62,889 bases of DNA, taken from contig JAQIBV010000057.1 in the NCBI GenBank assembly GCA_027858855.1, positions 1-62,889 of the forward strand, written 5' to 3'. Below the pieces are notes generated by a model, which saw only the letters and a list, made by a program, of their open reading frames with translations, was not told where the DNA came from and ran no database searches. Below are positions 49,757-62,142 of this stretch, one piece after another (within the stretch, counting starts at the first letter, position 1; each line of letters starts with the position of its first letter). Position numbers and translations under genes: made by a program. The DNA is from Spirochaetota bacterium (GTDB lineage: Bacteria; Spirochaetota; UBA4802; JAFGJZ01).

Positions 49757-50389
49757 CTATTTTTTGCTGATCATATCGCGCAACGTAGTTTCACCAAGTT
49801 GCATCAAATCAAGCCTGTTTTTTAAGTTATCCTTCATCTTCCGTTTTTCAAGTATACGGGTCACCATATTAGATTTACGTCGCATATGTTGTATTGAAGG
49901 GATAGATGTCTTAAAGAACTCTGCTAGTTCACGGTCTTTAATTTTATAGAGTCCATTGGTTCCCTTTTTATCTTTTTTTATGTATTCACGCAGGTTAGCG
50001 AAATTGTTTTTTGTCCAGTAGTCGGGTTCAAGGGATTCTGTTGAGGTGTAGTTGTAGGTTGACCACCTCTTCTCATTCCTTTCACGCCAGCCTGCCATCT
50101 TTTTCTGTTTCCAGTAGGGGTGCCGGTTACGGGCATATTCGATGTCTTCCATCGAATATCCGGTTTTTTCACGCCATTGTCGCCCTAAAACAATCTTTTT
50201 TCCACGAGACACCCTTGAATTAACACATCTATCTATAAACTGGGCGGGATCTTTTGCGCTTAGAATCTGCTTTTCGTTATAATCTTTCACGATGTTTCCC
50301 CCAATGCTTTGTCTTATGGTCACCTCAGTAAAATTGTCTCTTTTCCCGTTAGAAGAAAAGAATCCATGGTCATACAGGGCTTTGACCAT
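49757..50389 (-). CDS. Protein of unknown function with a helix-turn-helix-like C-terminus
   Basis: A 210-residue, strongly basic protein rich in Arg, Lys, Trp and Tyr. Segment DRELAEFFKTSIPSIQHMRR resembles a helix-turn-helix that reads a DNA site; an earlier stretch, WREKTGYSMEDIEYARNRHP, might be another. No catalytic motif is seen. The ATG lacks a good ribosome-binding site, so the start is uncertain. It stands alone between a gene-free region and the convergent acyl-CoA synthetase. Could be a phage- or plasmid-derived DNA-binding protein. Confidence 0.55.
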   Translation of the reverse strand: MVKALYDHGFFSSNGKRDNFTEVTIRQSIGGNIVKDYNEKQILSAKDPAQFIDRCVNSRVSRGKKIVLGRQWREKTGYSMEDIEYARNRHPYWKQKKMAGWRERNEKRWSTYNYTSTESLEPDYWTKNNFANLREYIKKDKKGTNGLYKIKDRELAEFFKTSIPSIQHMRRKSNMVTRILEKRKMKDNLKNRLDLMQLGETTLRDMISKK

Positions 50390-50724: not shown

Positions 50725-52533
50725 ATGCCATTAAAAAAACGAGTGATTATTATACATGGTAGCGGATTGCTTTTTTCAGAGGCTCTTGATCGTCTGATAC
50801 GTTTTCCTGATATTCAGGTTCTGTATTCTCACGGAACCTATTACTTTAAATCTGTGGACAGGTTGATTATTCGCCGGTTATTGGCTCATCCACGAGAATC
50901 CAGGATTATTACTACATATCAGAAATTACTTATCGCAAGGATGTTACAGGCCAGTCTTTCGCCAGTTTCGACTCCTCGTGGTGCTTTTTACGAGTATAAT
51001 GAAGACGATCTTCACTATCTTTTCGGTAGTTTTGGGCTTCCTTTCAGCTATTTTGAACGCAGATATCGGGCTGAACTGCTTCATCAGCGAGCCGAAAGGG
51101 AATTAAAACGTACACTGCAAAAAATGGATCAGTTAATTCCAGGCCTGCGGACATCGAATGGTATATTGCTGCACGAAGATGAAATACGAAAAAAGTTTGG
51201 TAATAATCCGGAATATAGTGATATCTATACATTGATAAAATCCATTCAGCTACGTTATGAATCAGGGACCAGCGTTGATTCGGCAGTTGCAGCAGCCTTC
51301 ACCACTTATCGATTAATAGAATCTCATGATCGTGGTGAAGAGACTCTCCAATATGGCAAAAGTTATGTATATGACTTCGTTGAGTATTATGAGGGTTTGT
51401 GCTCTCTTGAAAAGCATTCTCCAGCATATCTTTACATTAACAATATTCCACCTTGTGCAATTCCTGAATTAGAAAAAGATCTTCATTATCTGAAGTCGAA
51501 AGGGGTTACATTAAAAGAGTACCTCGTAAATAACTGCTCAGATGAAGAGTCTTCTCTTGTTTCCCGGTTGCACAGGGATGGTTTGATTAAAAAGACCAAT
51601 ATCACTGACTCTGAAATAAGCAGTTTTGCTTCTGAAAATAGTGCTCGAATGGCTGTTTCTGAAGGGATTTTCCCTGTTCCTGGGGCTAACACCCTCTTAA
51701 GTCTGATAAATAAAGATAATCAGACTTCAATTACTGAATACAATTTGCTCCAGGATGTTTTATGCAGTCCAATCCCGGTTATTGAGGTAGTCGAAACGAT
51801 TTTCAAGTCGATTAAAACAGATAATCTTTTTCGCTCTGTCCGTGGAAAAAAATGGCTTCAGGAAATACAACGGTTGAATGATTTTCATGCATCTATAGAG
51901 GATAAGTTTCTTAAATCAGTATATCAGCTGTTTTTCAGGTCGGAAGGATCTTCACTAGATGGCGGGCAGGATGAGGAGTTTAATATACTGGTTGTACAGG
52001 CGGTTAAACCGGGGAAGGGCCGCCCTCATTTGACTGTTGGAGAAGCAGCCTATTATTATAAACGTAAGTTCCCTGATGCACAATATCTTTTCTATTGTAT
52101 AGGTTCACGGCTTCTTTTTTTCAAGCGATTGCGGCTTGATTCAGATTGGTTGAATCCATATGAGCTTATGAGTCAAATTGGTGCGCCGGGTGATGGCTCT
52201 GAAATTGCTTCGCCAACAGCGCGACCAGCGGAAAATTTGAATTACCCACGTCAAATAATTGGAAACGTAGGGTCGCTGAACTTTTCCAGATTTGTCTTAT
52301 ATCTGTCATTTATATTACAGAGTGTATTATCCTCTTCTGCAGTTATTAAAAACCGTTCAGAATATATAGATGTGCTGCAGAAACAGCGGATTATGAAAAT
52401 TGTACTGTTTTTGCTACTCTGCTTTATTATGGGTTTAAGTATTTTGTTTACAAATGATGATTACAGGTTAGATATTATCGAAAAGACAAATAGTAACTTT
52501 TATAATCCGACAACTATATCGACCGGAGAATAG
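50725..52533 (+). CDS. Unknown 602-residue protein coupled to comEC, C-terminal membrane anchor
   Basis: No family recognised. The N-terminus, KKRVIIIHGSGLLFSEALDR, is strand-loop-helix and could start an alpha/beta domain. The middle (about 100-430) is helical. About 430-480 is an alpha/beta segment (FNILVVQAVKPGKGRPHLTV, then DAQYLFYCIGSRLLFFKRL). One membrane helix near the C-terminus (IVLFLLLCFIMGLSILF, about 558-575) is followed by a short outside tail. It ends 2 bp before the comEC-like gene, so the two are cotranscribed and may work together. The ATG has only a weak AGAG signal. Confidence 0.65.
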   Translation: MPLKKRVIIIHGSGLLFSEALDRLIRFPDIQVLYSHGTYYFKSVDRLIIRRLLAHPRESRIITTYQKLLIARMLQASLSPVSTPRGAFYEYNEDDLHYLFGSFGLPFSYFERRYRAELLHQRAERELKRTLQKMDQLIPGLRTSNGILLHEDEIRKKFGNNPEYSDIYTLIKSIQLRYESGTSVDSAVAAAFTTYRLIESHDRGEETLQYGKSYVYDFVEYYEGLCSLEKHSPAYLYINNIPPCAIPELEKDLHYLKSKGVTLKEYLVNNCSDEESSLVSRLHRDGLIKKTNITDSEISSFASENSARMAVSEGIFPVPGANTLLSLINKDNQTSITEYNLLQDVLCSPIPVIEVVETIFKSIKTDNLFRSVRGKKWLQEIQRLNDFHASIEDKFLKSVYQLFFRSEGSSLDGGQDEEFNILVVQAVKPGKGRPHLTVGEAAYYYKRKFPDAQYLFYCIGSRLLFFKRLRLDSDWLNPYELMSQIGAPGDGSEIASPTARPAENLNYPRQIIGNVGSLNFSRFVLYLSFILQSVLSSSAVIKNRSEYIDVLQKQRIMKIVLFLLLCFIMGLSILFTNDDYRLDIIEKTNSNFYNPTTISTGE

Positions 52534-52535
52534 CG

Positions 52536-55199
52536 ATGATATATAAGAATATTTCTATTGCGGCTACCGGCTTGCTGGCAGGAATTGTGCTTTATGTTTT
52601 AACCGCAATTCCACTGTTATATGCTTTACTGGCTTTTTGCCTTATGTTACCTGCATGTGCATTTATAATTTACCGTGATTTAAAATGGAAAGAACTACCA
52701 GTTATTATTTCATTCTTGTCTCTCTTTATTCTGGGCATGTCTGTTGGTTATATGCGGCTCCATTATGCGATGCTCCCCTCGCAAACTGATCTCTTTTCAT
52801 ACATAGACGCAAAATCAAAGCAAATAAGTGTTGAGGGGGTTGTTGTCAATGATCCTGTACTACGCACAAATGTGGAAACAGAACTGCTTCTCTCTGTCAA
52901 AAAGGTCTTTGATTTGAAAACAGATAACTGGGTTAAAGTTAATCCAGTTACTGTGCTTGTGAAAATAGATAAAACAGATACGGCAGTCTCTACGTTTTTC
53001 GAGACTCTTTCAGATACCGAAATATCAGGCATGTCTTTACAGATTGCTGCCGTATTTGTCCTGGCAGAGCCTCCGCTAAACCCGGGAGAGTTTGATTATC
53101 TTAATTATATGCAACGAAATAACATCTCTGCTTTTTTTGGTTGTGGTAGCAGTGATGTACGTTTTATTGGCCGTAACGATTATTGGTCTTTCAGTGGAGT
53201 TGCATCAATACTAAAGGATAGCTTCATTCAGACTTTTAGGCGAACAATACCCTCTCCCGAAAGTCGGATGGTCTCTTCCGTTTTGCTAGGAACCCGTCGT
53301 TCTCTTGACAATGCCGAATATAATGGAAGGAAGATTCAGGATATATTCACATATTCAGGAGTGACGACTTTTATAAACAGTTCAGGATTGCATATTGTTA
53401 TCCTTTCACTGCTGCTATATACTCTTTTCTTTGCACTTGGGTTTAAAACCGAGCATCTTGCCCCGGGTATAATCACGCTTTTATTGCTGTTTACACTTTT
53501 AAGTGGCGCTCGTCCTTCTACACTTCAGGCTTTTATGGTGACAGCTATCGCAATAGCCGTTTTTTCTTATCTGGATTACAATATTCGCAAATCGGCAATT
53601 ATAGGTCTATCGGTTACGGCAATTACGTTGTTGCTCTATAATCCATTTATTCTTTTTTCCTACTCTTTTATGCTCACCTTCGGTTCTGTTTTTATTCTTG
53701 TAGCTGTTACTCCACCAGTTATGCGCTGGTTAAACATGTTGCATGGTTTTACACTTATATTTTTCACCTTGTATTATGGCCTATTGGTTTTTGTCTTGAA
53801 TATAGACGCACAGTTTTTTATTCAAAAGGATTATCTGATACTCGTTTTTGGTTTAGCATGGATTATTATTCGAATTAGTCGTCTTCTTAATAATCGGTTT
53901 CCAGTTATGTGGAGCATCTCTTTCTCTTCTTTTCCGACACCAATTAAGGCGCTTATTGCATTCTCTTTTGTATTTCAGATAGGTATCCAGATTCCTCTCT
54001 CCGCCTGGTACACCGGTTTGTTCCCGACAAGTTCACTTATAACTCTTGTGGTTACTATTCCAGTAATCGGAATGGTACTGATAATAGGTACCATCACCGG
54101 AGTAGCCGGACTTATTCCAGTTATAGGCCACTGGGTGGCTTTGCCCTTTGGTGCTTCAACTTACCTTTTTTCACGACTTCTACTTATTATTGCCGATACG
54201 GGCAGCACAATACTCCAATCTCCTACTCTGCCTAAACCGGATCTTGTATGGATAGCCGGTTATTATTCTTTGCTGTTTATTTTACTCTACTCTTTTCTTA
54301 CTCTTCCTTATATCAAAGCAATTTTTTTCAGAATTAATAACAGGTTGAATACACTTATAATCAGAGCGCTTCCGGTTTTTGCAGGGGCCGCTATCATTGT
54401 AACTCCGATGCTGATAAATGTTACCAGATCTGAAAAAGAGCTGACCATGATCCTCTACCATGCTGATAAAAGGTCACCTGTATCCATTATTACCGAAAAA
54501 GGAGAAGCTGGGCTGGTTATTCCGCCCACAGAATCTTTTAATACTAATGCCATTAGTACAGGTTTACGGTCTGAACAGGGTACGGCTATTTCAACTGTTT
54601 TTACATCGCAGGTGAACTCACAAGTCTTATCTGATATTCAGACCTTAGCCAAAACAGGTTTTAAACCTTCGTTATTGCTTCTGCCAAAGCATCTCTCTGA
54701 GGAGGTGCAAAATGAGCCCGATAATGGTATTGCTACGGCCTATGTTTCTTTCTATAATTTTTCACCAATGACCAAAATGAGTTTTGCTCCACGCGGGGAT
54801 GAAGAGAATTTTATGCATCTTCAGATATTTGATCATAAGATTATGCTTGTGCACACACTCGAAACTGGTGAAATGTCAGATGATAGTGCTTTTTTAGCTT
54901 CGGCTGAATTATCGGATCTGTCTCTGCTTGTTCTGCCCGAAATAGAAACGGCAGAAGAGTTTGAAAATGCCAGGAAGCTGATTGCAAGAACTGATGCATC
55001 TTCACTTGTTATTACAAACGGGCAATCAAAATATAGCATTGCCCTGCTTAATGATCCATCAGTACAGAAAATGAGTACTTATCTTACTAGCAGAAGTGGT
55101 GCCCTTTTCTGTAATATTTCAGAGAACAGTTTAAAAATTGACACACTTTTTAATATCAGAAAACGTAAAGAGGTGATTATCCGTTCGTTTCTTCAATAA
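52536..55199 (+). CDS. ComEC/Rec2-like membrane channel with a degenerate C-terminal domain
   Basis: An 887-residue polytopic protein. Three N-terminal hydrophobic segments lead to an OB-like periplasmic domain (about 95-215). The Competence membrane domain (about 220-600) has the family's signature region as YSGVTTFINSSGLHIVIL and multiple helices. ComEC proteins normally end in a metallo-beta-lactamase-fold domain with HxHxDH. Here residues 620-887 keep a similar size but show no such motif. It probably forms the DNA-uptake channel; nuclease function, if any, would be lost. GATG overlap with the preceding stop indicates coupling. Confidence 0.82.
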   Translation: MIYKNISIAATGLLAGIVLYVLTAIPLLYALLAFCLMLPACAFIIYRDLKWKELPVIISFLSLFILGMSVGYMRLHYAMLPSQTDLFSYIDAKSKQISVEGVVVNDPVLRTNVETELLLSVKKVFDLKTDNWVKVNPVTVLVKIDKTDTAVSTFFETLSDTEISGMSLQIAAVFVLAEPPLNPGEFDYLNYMQRNNISAFFGCGSSDVRFIGRNDYWSFSGVASILKDSFIQTFRRTIPSPESRMVSSVLLGTRRSLDNAEYNGRKIQDIFTYSGVTTFINSSGLHIVILSLLLYTLFFALGFKTEHLAPGIITLLLLFTLLSGARPSTLQAFMVTAIAIAVFSYLDYNIRKSAIIGLSVTAITLLLYNPFILFSYSFMLTFGSVFILVAVTPPVMRWLNMLHGFTLIFFTLYYGLLVFVLNIDAQFFIQKDYLILVFGLAWIIIRISRLLNNRFPVMWSISFSSFPTPIKALIAFSFVFQIGIQIPLSAWYTGLFPTSSLITLVVTIPVIGMVLIIGTITGVAGLIPVIGHWVALPFGASTYLFSRLLLIIADTGSTILQSPTLPKPDLVWIAGYYSLLFILLYSFLTLPYIKAIFFRINNRLNTLIIRALPVFAGAAIIVTPMLINVTRSEKELTMILYHADKRSPVSIITEKGEAGLVIPPTESFNTNAISTGLRSEQGTAISTVFTSQVNSQVLSDIQTLAKTGFKPSLLLLPKHLSEEVQNEPDNGIATAYVSFYNFSPMTKMSFAPRGDEENFMHLQIFDHKIMLVHTLETGEMSDDSAFLASAELSDLSLLVLPEIETAEEFENARKLIARTDASSLVITNGQSKYSIALLNDPSVQKMSTYLTSRSGALFCNISENSLKIDTLFNIRKRKEVIIRSFLQ

Positions 55200-57256: not shown

Positions 57257-58459
57257 GTGAAAAGAAAGTTTTTAGTGATCCTGATACTCTTTATTTTTGT
57301 TCCGTGTTTTGGTTATACAGATCAGACAACAACAGAACGAATTATTAAAGAAAATAAACTTTTTGTTGAGTTTTTAAACATATGTATGAGCAATTTTGGA
57401 GACAAGGACTCTAAAAAGCTCGATGCTTTTTATGAGGCGTATCAGGCACATTTTAACGGAGAGGTTGCCTTTTTGCAGTCAGACTATCGCAGATCTTACC
57501 GTAATGTCTATACTTCTCAGGAGATTAATGTTGATCTGTATAATGATGTATTGAACGAATACTACCTCGATCAGTCTAAAAAGGTTTTGGACAGACTTGC
57601 TCCAGGAATAATAAAATCTAAAAAGACCGAGGCTCGTCAATATTTGACACTGGGATACCGGGACCGTGCCCTGGCTCGTAATGTTCAAATGGTCGGTAAC
57701 GCTTCACGTCCGCACCTGCGTTCACATAAGATTTATGCCTTCATGGAGGCAATTAAGTATTCACGCCGTTCAATGAGATATGCCCTGCTCGCACTTTTCG
57801 AGAGCCAGGATGTAGAAATGAAAAAGTATATCTATACTCACCTTTTCGAGCTGGAGCGTGAAAGCAATAATCCATTCTATAACCGGTTTTTATCGAAGGA
57901 TGATCGGGGTATTGTTGCGGAGATAAACCGTGATTATGAGGATTATGAAAATGAGTATGGCCCTAAACTTGAATCTGAATTGAAACGCTATGAAGAGACC
58001 GGAAAAATTCCAGATAAGGCAGGCAGTCCAGTTACAGCAGACCTTGATGGTGACCCGGCAGCCGGCGGGTTAAGCGTCATCCCATCAGATTCTACACCGG
58101 TCGATTACCTTTATGAAAATAAGATTGAGCGTAGGCTCCGTTTCAGGCAGGAGCAGCGTGTTGCCAAGTACGTTCGTAATGGTGAATTTTATCTTGCGAA
58201 TAAGGTAATCAATAAATATGTGGAAGATTTTAACTTTAAACTTATTTTAGCAACTATTGAAGTAATGAGAGCACGCGAAGACGAGGTGAAGTACAAACTG
58301 GACTATGATAACCTGCTGATTCAGCATATGGATAATTACTCGCGCCTTGCAAAGGAATCTATCCTTGACAGTTTCGCAGATCGTGTTAGAGTAGTTGATG
58401 ATATAATAGAAAAAAAAGATGCGAAGGATCCTGTTTTGTCTGATGAAGTTGAAGAATAG
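57257..58459 (+). CDS. Exported protein of unknown function
   Basis: A 400-residue protein with a signal peptide (MKRKFLVILILFIFVPCFG) probably cleaved after the Gly/Tyr region; there is no lipobox. The mature part is mostly helical and rich in Tyr, Arg and Lys. It holds a Pro/Gly/Asp-rich linker at about 255-285 (AGSPVTADLDGDPAAGG) between two helical halves, then a charged C-terminal helix. The GTG start follows GGGGGAGAG. It resembles exported hypothetical proteins I associate with treponemes, but no function is known to me. Two small genes follow in the same direction. Confidence 0.7.
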   Translation: MKRKFLVILILFIFVPCFGYTDQTTTERIIKENKLFVEFLNICMSNFGDKDSKKLDAFYEAYQAHFNGEVAFLQSDYRRSYRNVYTSQEINVDLYNDVLNEYYLDQSKKVLDRLAPGIIKSKKTEARQYLTLGYRDRALARNVQMVGNASRPHLRSHKIYAFMEAIKYSRRSMRYALLALFESQDVEMKKYIYTHLFELERESNNPFYNRFLSKDDRGIVAEINRDYEDYENEYGPKLESELKRYEETGKIPDKAGSPVTADLDGDPAAGGLSVIPSDSTPVDYLYENKIERRLRFRQEQRVAKYVRNGEFYLANKVINKYVEDFNFKLILATIEVMRAREDEVKYKLDYDNLLIQHMDNYSRLAKESILDSFADRVRVVDDIIEKKDAKDPVLSDEVEE

Positions 58460-59445: not shown

Positions 59446-62142
59446 TTATTTAAACCGATTTTCAAGCTTTTTAAGGTACTCCTTCTGTGAAGGGTTAAAG
59501 CTGTTTGCAGAAGCCTTGTCAAAGAGTGTGTCGGGTCTTGTCTCTCCGCTATAAGCTTCAATTTCCTCAACACTCCTGTGAAATTCTATCGACATTTTTG
59601 TCAGTTTCAATTCGGCAATTTTCCAAAGAGAGTCCCCTTCGCGCACGATGAATCTGTCACTGTCCGGAAGCGTAAAGATGCTTCCAGGGAAAATCCAGTG
59701 CGGGTTTTTACCCTTAACCTCATCTGGACCAAGTGGGCGGAAACCGTTCATGACTGCAATTTCGTTAAGATAGAAAAGAACATCAGTATCCGATATATGA
59801 ATTTCGAAACGTTTTATTGCCTCTTCGTTATCCTCACCTTCAATAAGCTCTTCCAGATCACGCTTTTCCGTTAGTGGTGCGATCATTTCTTCATCAGAAG
59901 CGATGCCGCTTTCTGTTTCGTTAATTGAACTCTCGGCTGTAACGTCGGAATCCCGGCCAGGTTCAGATGAACTGTTAATATCCGGGTCTGTAGTTGCTGG
60001 TACGTCAACAGCCGTGGTTTTAGTGGCTGTAAAGCCTTCCTGAATTGTCTGGTAAAGTGATTTTGGCTGGTATGCCTTCCAGTAGAGTAAAAACATTATG
60101 GAAATCAGAGCAATCATCAGAAGGGCGATAATCAGACGGTTTAGAGAACGAAAGAAAATAATGGGGGTACTGTACCAGAGTGGACGTACAGTCAGATGTG
60201 AAAGTCTGGGTTTAACTCCCTTTAATTCTTTTTGAGCAGCATATTGATTTTTGCGTATCATATATTGGTCAAATCGCTCTTTGCTGAACAGGAATGATCC
60301 CGTTTTTGATAAAAATCGGGACAACAGCTCTTTCAAAGAGGTTTTGGTTTCACTCTCGTTTTGCTGCTGCTCATCAAATATCTGATTAATATGAAGCTTG
60401 TTAATGTCTTCAAGGGAGAGTATGTTCTGCTTATATATCTCTTTGCGTTCAGTTATGGCTTTTTTTAGTGAACGTACAGGTTTTGTCTTTCCGTTTCCAA
60501 GATAGAGTTGCACCAGCTCATGAAGCCGTTTCCGATCGTTCTCAATTTTTGAGGCATAATCATGGTATTCATCGCCGTTTTTAAATGAGGACTCATCTGT
60601 TGGTATCTGAACCGGAACCATTGGTATATAATTTTTTTGACGATGGGTTTCGTTCAAAGGCATATAGACCGTAAAAACTCCTTCGTCGGCTATCAAAAGT
60701 TTTGACGAGAATTTGATGTCCATTGCTATCAGGTTCTCGACAGAGTTTTGAACAGCATAGTTTTGCACCATTTTTTTTAGGTGTGATGATATTTTGCGGT
60801 TAGTTGCAATATGGATAAAGTATTTAATAATGCTAATACAGTTAATTCGACTGAATGGCGATGATTCGTTCTCAAAAAAATCACAGATATGTTGATAGTT
60901 TTCGGGTTTATCTATGGCGACCAGAGCGTTAAGAGTTTCATTATCAATTACTGAGTTAAAGAAGTTCAGACAATCGTTTGATGATTCAAATTTTTGAATA
61001 GTGTAGTTTACTTTTCTGTACAGAGGCCTGTGTGAGAGTGATGAGAGCTTAGTGAAATTGGGATTGTCGTCTTCCAGTATCAGATAGGGGGTTTTAATCG
61101 ATTTAAGAATCAGGTTGTTGGCTTCGAAAACAGAATAGGGAAGAATAAAGCAGTCTGGAGTCATCTTGATAATTTTTTCGATTCCCTTTGAGTTGCTGAT
61201 GTAGATAATTCTTGTCGGGCTGGTTTCATCAGTCAGATAACTAATCTCGAGGTTTGTTGTTCCGTTCAGCTCTTTCACATGCAGATTTGGAGTTATTGTC
61301 GTTTCGGCAGAACTAAGGCTTTTATAGCTGATTTTCGCACGAGAGAACAGCTTTTTTATGATGTTCATTTGAGGCTTGTCATCAGAAAGGAGTGTCAGTT
61401 TCCCCGAACAGTGGTTTACCCAGCGCAAAAATGCGGTCAGGTTCAGATAATTAGCTGAAGGGTGAGCTATACCAGCTATTTTGCGTGGATTAATTCCATA
61501 GCGGTCAAAAACCTGTTGGTAGTTTGGTGGTAACATGTACAGAAAATAGTTGGAGTTGCTGAAGAAAACCGGAACCGAATCAGCAACTAGAAATCCGTTG
61601 GCGCTATGCATGCGATTAGTCTTAGTGTTTTCATATAGATCTTCATGAACACGGTTAGTATTGTAGGTCTCTTGCAGCCGAGTGTGAAGATTAAAGAGGT
61701 CTTTTTTGTTATGTGATATCTTAAAATTACCATCATGATAAAAAATACCGATAAATGATTCGCGGTCGGAAAGGGAGCGTGAGCTGATTTCCGGTATATC
61801 CTTTTCTACATCCACGATTGTCACGTTTTTAAGATCCAGACCGAATATTTTCTGAAAATCAAGAAACCTTTTTAGTGTATAGTGGCTTCCGATATAACGG
61901 TTTGATGATTGAGTATTGATATCAATATTAAATTGTTCCTGTGCCGGATTACCGGGCATATCGTCGGTAATAATTATGTTTTCGACAAGGGGGATAAGCT
62001 CGACGGGCATGTCCATCCAGTTCCCGATACGGATAAATGGCTGAGAATCGTCAAGGGAGTTTCCGGTAAATATAATAAAGCACCCGAAGTCGGTTACAAA
62101 AACCCGATCGCTCTCTTTTTGAATAATATCTGATATCTTCAT
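59446..62142 (-). CDS. Large single-span protein with cytoplasmic N-terminus and periplasmic LysM-like C-terminus
   Basis: An 898-residue protein. Residues 1 to about 660 lack a signal peptide or known enzyme motif and look like several alpha/beta units. A basic stretch leads to a membrane helix at about 665-690 (LLMIALISIMFLLYW). The outer part has an acidic low-complexity linker and a LysM-like end at about 826-875: FIVREGDSLWKIAEL. It could thus sense or hold peptidoglycan and pass a signal inward. It is cotranscribed with the gene at 58835. Function unknown. Confidence 0.65.
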   Translation of the reverse strand: MKISDIIQKESDRVFVTDFGCFIIFTGNSLDDSQPFIRIGNWMDMPVELIPLVENIIITDDMPGNPAQEQFNIDINTQSSNRYIGSHYTLKRFLDFQKIFGLDLKNVTIVDVEKDIPEISSRSLSDRESFIGIFYHDGNFKISHNKKDLFNLHTRLQETYNTNRVHEDLYENTKTNRMHSANGFLVADSVPVFFSNSNYFLYMLPPNYQQVFDRYGINPRKIAGIAHPSANYLNLTAFLRWVNHCSGKLTLLSDDKPQMNIIKKLFSRAKISYKSLSSAETTITPNLHVKELNGTTNLEISYLTDETSPTRIIYISNSKGIEKIIKMTPDCFILPYSVFEANNLILKSIKTPYLILEDDNPNFTKLSSLSHRPLYRKVNYTIQKFESSNDCLNFFNSVIDNETLNALVAIDKPENYQHICDFFENESSPFSRINCISIIKYFIHIATNRKISSHLKKMVQNYAVQNSVENLIAMDIKFSSKLLIADEGVFTVYMPLNETHRQKNYIPMVPVQIPTDESSFKNGDEYHDYASKIENDRKRLHELVQLYLGNGKTKPVRSLKKAITERKEIYKQNILSLEDINKLHINQIFDEQQQNESETKTSLKELLSRFLSKTGSFLFSKERFDQYMIRKNQYAAQKELKGVKPRLSHLTVRPLWYSTPIIFFRSLNRLIIALLMIALISIMFLLYWKAYQPKSLYQTIQEGFTATKTTAVDVPATTDPDINSSSEPGRDSDVTAESSINETESGIASDEEMIAPLTEKRDLEELIEGEDNEEAIKRFEIHISDTDVLFYLNEIAVMNGFRPLGPDEVKGKNPHWIFPGSIFTLPDSDRFIVREGDSLWKIAELKLTKMSIEFHRSVEEIEAYSGETRPDTLFDKASANSFNPSQKEYLKKLENRFK

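Follow-up and report, generated by a model that had tools for sequence, protein, structure and literature searches.

A second, divergent ComEC and a membrane-anchored partner protein in a spirochaete genus: possible reuse of DNA-uptake parts

Introduction

The ComEC/Rec2 channel of DNA uptake has a three-part layout, with an OB-fold region (DUF4131), a channel (Competence) domain and a C-terminal beta-lactamase-like nuclease domain. According to a published survey, most proteomes contain one Competence-domain protein, and those of Spirochaetes are mostly of the Competence-only type (PMC6299819). Forms of ComEC in which the nuclease domain is inactive or missing have already been described (PMC5031224, PMC8579336, PMC12455585). 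One of them is that of S. pneumoniae, whose probably inactive beta-lactamase-like domain is accompanied by a membrane-bound protein, EndA. According to PMC8579336, EndA cuts the non-transported strand on the outer side of the membrane, and the disposal of the second strand where ComEC has no working nuclease domain is described as open. A further component, ComEA, carries a DNA-binding helix-hairpin-helix on the outer side of a membrane anchor. A different group of proteins that will be relevant here is that of the DHH/DHHA1 phosphoesterases, which include RecJ, NrnA and GdpP.

Here we describe a pair of genes in a window of 62,889 nucleotides, this being the whole stretch of DNA that was analysed and corresponding to contig 39 of a 3.35 Mb draft genome (G000). 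The first gene encodes a membrane-anchored protein, hereafter the partner, and the second a ComEC-like protein, hereafter ComEC2. ComEC2 appears to share the three-part layout of the ComEC/Rec2 channel, with the Competence and DUF4131 domains over their Pfam cut-offs, and differs from it in the absence of the metal motif, in changes at three otherwise invariant channel positions, and in being a second copy. The pair recalls the ComEC and EndA of S. pneumoniae in joining a ComEC with a probably inactive domain to a membrane-bound protein; however, EndA is a nuclease acting outside, whereas the partner has no match among nuclease families, and its body is predicted to lie inside the cell. The partner is like ComEA in its position directly upstream of comEC and in a weakly similar anchor, but it has no helix-hairpin-helix, and its large domain is predicted on the opposite side of that anchor. 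Finally, it is related to a protein of another spirochaete (G068) that bears DDHHP and GTKADGGHPEAATG motifs, resembling those of the DHH/DHHA1 type, whereas the partner itself has neither these motifs nor a profile match to such enzymes.

Results

The sequence-only reading of this window had described an unknown 602-residue protein ending 2 bp before a ComEC-like frame, and the ORF coordinates confirmed this arrangement (Table 1). The neighbour upstream of the pair lies on the opposite strand, and pepF is found 114 bp downstream of ComEC2. Both genes were also found intact and adjacent, with ORFs overlapping by 1 bp, in a second genome of the same genus (G004; JAFGRW01, "Spirochaetes bacterium isolate Zod_Metabat.857"), which was the only relative detected in a scan of genome contigs. 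The partner was present in these two of the 46 genomes of the class, and full-length matches to ComEC2 were restricted to the same two, seven more genomes giving only short, weak matches that corresponded to their ordinary ComECs. No relatives were found in the viral contigs or plasmids searched.

Between G000 and G004, the partner shows 54% identity and ComEC2 55%; the FadD-like neighbour reaches 84%, PepF 73%, and the other ComEC of these genomes (ComEC1) 47%. The pair is fast-evolving, yet no faster than ComEC1, and its frames are intact; ComEC1 (L055:6439-8304 (+), L056:5734-7590 (-)) diverges faster between the two genomes than ComEC2 does. Around pepF in G006, G001 and G003, the pair was absent and, as gene order is not kept there, no clean empty site was available and gain could not be distinguished from loss.

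Table 1. Coordinates in the window of the partner and ComEC2 genes and of the features assigned to them
Feature	Coordinates	Strand	Basis or remark
Partner ORF, 602 aa	50725..52533	+	Intact; C-terminal membrane anchor; 54-55% identity in G004/JAFGRW010000034.1
Partner aa 179-246, aligned with the N-terminal DHH-motif region of the G068 relative	51259..51462	+	blastp 33% over 70 aa, E 5.5e-7 (two-sequence search)
Partner aa 432-528, DHHA1-like unit, signature lost	52018..52308	+	blastp 29% over 97 aa, E 5.3e-12; profile E 8.5e-11; repeat alignment
Partner aa 559-597, predicted transmembrane anchor and following stretch	52399..52515	+	Resembles N-terminal anchor of G068 ComEA
ComEC2, 887 aa, divergent second ComEC-like protein	52536..55199	+	Intact ORF; Pfam domains, tree
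DUF4131 (OB-fold) region, ComEC2 aa 24-199	52605..53132	+	Pfam 56.1 bits, cut-off 31.6
Competence (channel) domain PF03772, ComEC2 aa 267-586	53334..54293	+	Pfam 50.1 bits, cut-off 23
ComEC2 codon 278, Thr	53367..53369	+	Val in G004; His in 49/51 aligned ComECs
ComEC2 codon 331, Gln	53526..53528	+	Gln in G004; Arg in 49/51 aligned ComECs
ComEC2 codon 384, Ser	53685..53687	+	Ser in G004; Ala in 49/51 aligned ComECs
Decayed metallo-beta-lactamase-like C-terminal domain (predicted), ComEC2 aa 618-887	54387..55196	+	Low-confidence model, alignments
FTSQVNSQ, stretch matched to HxHxDH	54600..54623	+	Placed by eye in domain; identical in G000 and G004

ComEC2 had been said to keep the membrane channel, which proved correct only in part, as residues of the channel domain that are otherwise invariant are substituted. 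The NCBIfam model ComEC_N-term TIGR00360 scored 32.8 bits on this protein, just under its cut-off of 36.5. The lack of HxHxDH in the C-terminus, also read from the sequence, was borne out, as the H-x-[HD]-x-D-H metal motif is absent there in both G000 and G004. In its place both genomes show FTSQVNSQ, a putative correspondence placed by eye; the MAFFT alignment does not put this stretch in one column with the other long forms. In addition, only two histidines of this domain are common to both genomes, and Pfam gave no Lactamase_B match at E<=1 for ComEC2.

Profile searches of PDB sequences with the ComEC2 C-terminus and with the whole protein returned no match; by contrast, its nearest relative, the second ComEC of G068 (G068_C160), matched solved ComECs. 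The structure prediction that had been proposed for the C-terminus yielded a low-confidence model, whose best match was the solved ComEC nuclease domain 9ic4 (Z 10.1, rmsd 4.9 over 185). As the model resembles a ComEC domain, the C-terminus seems to have a ComEC-type fold in which the metal ligands are absent, rather than to be an unrelated domain. A PADLOC row for CARF4 on ComEC2 (E 0.0045, 14 bits) was taken as chance.

The three substituted positions of the channel domain (codons 278, 331 and 384) were identified in a 51-row ComEC alignment from which L130 was left out, and the changes appear solely in the two ComEC2 proteins of the genus, with no gap near these columns in their rows. Two of the three positions carry the same residue in G000 and G004. 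ComEC1 and G068_C160 both have His, Arg and Ala at these positions, and the two solved ComECs aligned with G068_C160 also have the His and the Arg. Among 33 strongly conserved columns, 15 are kept in ComEC2 and 22 in G068_C160, and the SGLH motif is retained in ComEC2. The substitutions at His278 and Arg331 may be tolerated changes. In the ComEC of Legionella, the channel residues W212 and Y373 matter (PMC12455585). The coexistence of a ComEC paralogue without otherwise invariant channel residues and another one that retains them constitutes a natural experiment, which makes His278 and Arg331 of interest.

ComEC1, a protein of 621 aa encoded on contig 3 of the same genome, scored 163.6 bits, versus 52.6 for ComEC2. 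A ComEC was detected in 43 of the 46 genomes of the class, with two copies only in both genomes of this genus. Across the phylum, 379 of 392 genomes had a ComEC and 12 showed at least two PF03772 rows, the latter count being our own reading of match rows, some of which possibly represent one gene split between contigs. The counts in class and phylum agree with the published survey (PMC6299819).

A tree was built from 32 ComECs (10 of the 30 from the class, all 16 other loci and six named ones, with L130 included on a branch of 5.28). ComEC2 grouped in it with G068_C160, which comes from another spirochaete class, with an SH-aLRT of 99, and the other, ordinary ComEC of G068 (contig C80) grouped with its own class. 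Judging from this tree, ComEC2 is a member of a separate, rare ComEC clade. Its G068 relative shows a decayed metal site yet retains the three channel residues (His, Arg and Ala), so that the loss of the metal site probably came first, the channel residues having changed in this genus alone.

A regular-expression scan revealed HxHxDH in none of 46 spirochaete ComEC ORFs (0 of 30 from the class, 0 of 16 from elsewhere), a set of best-scoring loci rather than a random sample, which excludes ComEC2 and in which many proteins have no C-terminal domain altogether. The long forms inspected were all decayed at this point (...ILQNLDPACIGG in G068, ...FFLTNFSRKRSEG in G078 and ...IFLTSPLNERMEG in G056), and that of G056 gave a sub-threshold Pfam match to Lactamase_B of 15 bits. 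As the loss of the motif is broader than the distribution of the partner, the partner does not explain it. The case suggests that metal-site loss in spirochaetes is old and general, and therefore that the answer to second-strand disposal is not to be sought in this partner. The G056 genome also encodes a ComEC-type beta-lactamase-like protein that stands alone, is apparently secreted and carries a helix-hairpin-helix at its C-terminus (L165:1495-2715 (-)); here too, the HxHxDH stretch is lost (ILSNPQIINVNG).

The partner showed no Pfam match above a curated cut-off and no NCBIfam match at E<=1, and searches of PHROGs and PADLOC in addition to these two collections likewise yielded no known family above a cut-off or worth retaining. 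A match to Pfam DUF3413 (E 0.012, 15.3 bits versus 27.1), located over the C-terminal membrane part, was rejected. The best match of a profile of the partner alignment against PDB sequences was no better than E 0.2, and the AlphaFold model (pLDDT 40, no Foldseek match at E<=0.001) was too poor for use. Partial matches in five other genomes (E 0.004 to 0.01) were treated as chance, the only one inspected, that of G001, being a sensor-kinase frame.

The only other relative of the partner in the sample is a large G068 protein, of 1295 aa after joining two contig ends. It contains, in order, the motifs DLDTVAS, LYLPDF, DDHHP, HLQD and GTKADGGHPEAATG, an order which we take to be that of the DHH/DHHA1 phosphoesterases, and this pattern, composed after the sequence was seen, appeared in 0 of 200,000 shuffles. 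From these motifs in one protein, we infer that the G068 relative is DHH-like. Two regions of the partner align with it (Table 1), and the homology between both proteins can be considered firm on the basis of these alignments. In the first region, the partner has SVDSAV opposite DLDTVAS and LYINNIPP opposite LYLPDFPV, and in the DHHA1-like unit it has IGAPGDGSEIASPTARP where the G068 relative has IGTKADGGHPEAATGKP. The DHH motif and the DHHA1 histidine are absent from the partner, which also has nothing corresponding to the DDHHP region of the G068 protein. The partner can therefore be described as distantly related to a large protein of DHH/DHHA1-like character in another spirochaete class, the DHH-type motifs having disappeared from the partner itself.

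Profile methods gave no direct proof of this relationship. No DHH family was matched at E<=1 by the window partner in Pfam or NCBIfam, and nothing was matched in Pfam at E<=10 by the G004 partner or by the 1027-aa G068 protein. Neither the partner nor the G068 protein rose above shuffles in hhalign and hmmsearch comparisons with 16 NrnA-like proteins of the class, and a profile of six DHHA1-like units matched no DHH structure. The G068 protein (L052:3-3083 (-), continuing on L068:3005-3826 (-)), which matched no Pfam or NCBIfam family, presents four DHHA1-like repeats in addition to its DHH-like motifs and sits away from comEC, between mla(E/F/D)-like and lpxI/lpxB-like genes, named by sequence reading.

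In G068, a ComEA-like gene (L066:2777-3229 (-)) overlaps by one base the start of G068_C160. Its product scored 42.6 bits with TIGR01259, below the cut-off of 152, and 63.9 bits with HHH_3, above the cut-off of 27. The partner gene holds, upstream of ComEC2, the position that comEA has before G068_C160. The end of the partner consists of its anchor followed by YRLDIIEKTNSNFY, and the start of the G068 ComEA of its anchor followed by YRIPAIIASNSTYY. When the ComEA N-terminus was compared with 461 ORFs, the best non-self scores corresponded to the partner (57) and the G004 partner (50), with the next at 48, and when the stretch following the membrane helix was shuffled, 6 and 38 of 5000 permutations attained the score. 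The end of the partner also scored 28 to 35 with helix-hairpin-helix proteins of G068, G078 and G043, and 43 with the G056 beta-lactamase-like/helix-hairpin-helix protein. The anchor similarity between the partner and the G068 ComEA is weak (blastp E 0.013); from these comparisons, common descent of the two anchors is likely. No helix-hairpin-helix was matched in the partner with Pfam. The charges flanking its membrane helix are +3 before and -3 after (+2 and -2 in G004), a pattern from which the body of the protein is predicted to be cytoplasmic.

Discussion

The explanation that we favour, at somewhat below even odds (roughly 45%), is that the pair represents a duplicated and repurposed competence module, namely a ComEC complex that does not cut and probably does not import, bearing a cytoplasmic, catalytically dead DHH-like domain. 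With an intact-looking ComEC1 in the genome, ComEC2 would have been free to change. It appears to keep the OB-fold, channel and beta-lactamase-like layout and has lost the metal site and the otherwise invariant channel-domain residues, losses from which it most likely does not cut and probably passes no strand in the ordinary way. In the comEA slot, a ComEA-type anchor would bear, on the inside, a DHH/DHHA1-like domain without catalytic motifs, replacing the DNA-binding helix-hairpin-helix of the outside. ComEC2 and the partner would then form a stable, non-cutting membrane complex, which might bind nucleic acids outside through the OB and beta-lactamase-like domains of ComEC2, and a strand or a nucleotide inside through the dead DHH-like domain. 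Such a complex could assist or regulate the intact ComEC1, or have an unrelated task in the envelope. Of the two suggestions of the sequence-only reading, a task of both proteins outside DNA uptake is thus preferred, given the other ComEC of the genome and the lost channel-domain residues, any particular role being conjectural.

In a more specific form, which we put forward tentatively, a doubly dead competence pair would have become a new membrane machine, with a dead DHH-like domain grafted on a ComEA anchor, devoted to nucleic-acid or nucleotide sensing or to regulation of the real channel, and not to DNA import. In either form, the pair suggests that DNA-uptake parts have apparently been reused for something new. 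In the literature searched, we found no description of a second ComEC that has altered channel residues and lies beside a DHH-like protein occupying the comEA slot, and no paper combining ComEC, DHH and phosphoesterase; likewise, nothing on such a pair appears in the literature on spirochaete ComEC and ComEC paralogues, in records consisting mostly of titles and the first lines of abstracts.

The main rival, which we regard as rather unlikely, is a modified form of DNA import, in which ComEC2 would be a working channel with relaxed residues and the partner, in place of ComEA, would hold the incoming strand on the cytoplasmic side. The retention of the domain layout and of the SGLH motif fits with it, as does the location of the partner at the comEA position. 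It would also agree with the absence of a short ComEA-like ORF among the PF12836 hits of G000 (open frames of 710, 555 and 431 aa) and of G004 (736, 586, 1173 and 437 aa); however, most of the 25 genomes searched are likewise without such a short frame, so this absence is little informative. Against the proposal, ComEC2 is altered at positions that are identical in all other aligned ComECs (48-49), and an intact-looking ComEC1 is present in the same genome.

That the pair is a decaying relic, a superfluous second comEC operon heading to loss, appears improbable. Such a fate could account for the loss of catalytic and channel residues and for the presence of the pair in so few genomes of the class, but full-length frames persist in two genomes whose proteins are just 55% alike, ComEC2 shows a dN of 0.38 versus a dS of 2.6, the latter saturated, and the residues at two of the three changed positions coincide in both genomes.

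Still less probable is that two unrelated genes happen to lie side by side. The sequence-only reading had considered that the partner could prove unlinked in relatives, and this turned out to be so only in part: the genes are linked in both genomes of the genus (2/2), where they overlap or almost do, and in G068, the only more distant genome with both families, these are located on separate contigs with different surrounding genes, which is the observation that speaks for chance. The G068 contig stops inside the ComEC2 relative. Against chance, the search of 392 phylum genomes detected the partner family only in G000, G004 and G068, precisely the three that yielded the ComEC2 clade, a match of G048 in the ComEC2 search corresponding to its single ordinary ComEC. 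Two independent lineages are involved, and with the genus counted once, the chance of coincidence of the second lineage is about 1 in 390. The similarity of the partner anchor to that of the G068 ComEA encoded upstream of a ComEC also argues against unrelated neighbours.

Finally, the proposal of the sequence-only reading that the partner replaces a function lost from ComEC, here taken as degradation of the non-transported strand in the manner of EndA, is the least credible of all, since the tight adjacency of the pair in both genomes and the precedent of S. pneumoniae, with a probably inactive ComEC domain and the membrane nuclease EndA (PMC12455585, PMC8579336), are outweighed by a partner without any nuclease family match and with its DHH-type motifs gone, by its predicted cytoplasmic body, when EndA cuts outside, and by the absence of the metal motif from all 46 scanned ComECs, including those of genomes without the partner.

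Regarding the other genes of the window, an 898-aa protein (positions 59446-62142) has a stretch resembling a transmembrane segment and, close to its end, a weak match to LysM (13.8 bits in Pfam, under the cut-off), with no other family. Two more genes are related to families named from Leptospira: that at 49757-50389 is a relative of the LB099 family (136.5 bits, below the cut-off of 200), and that at 57257-58459 encodes an OmpL37-like protein (150.3 bits, cut-off 150).
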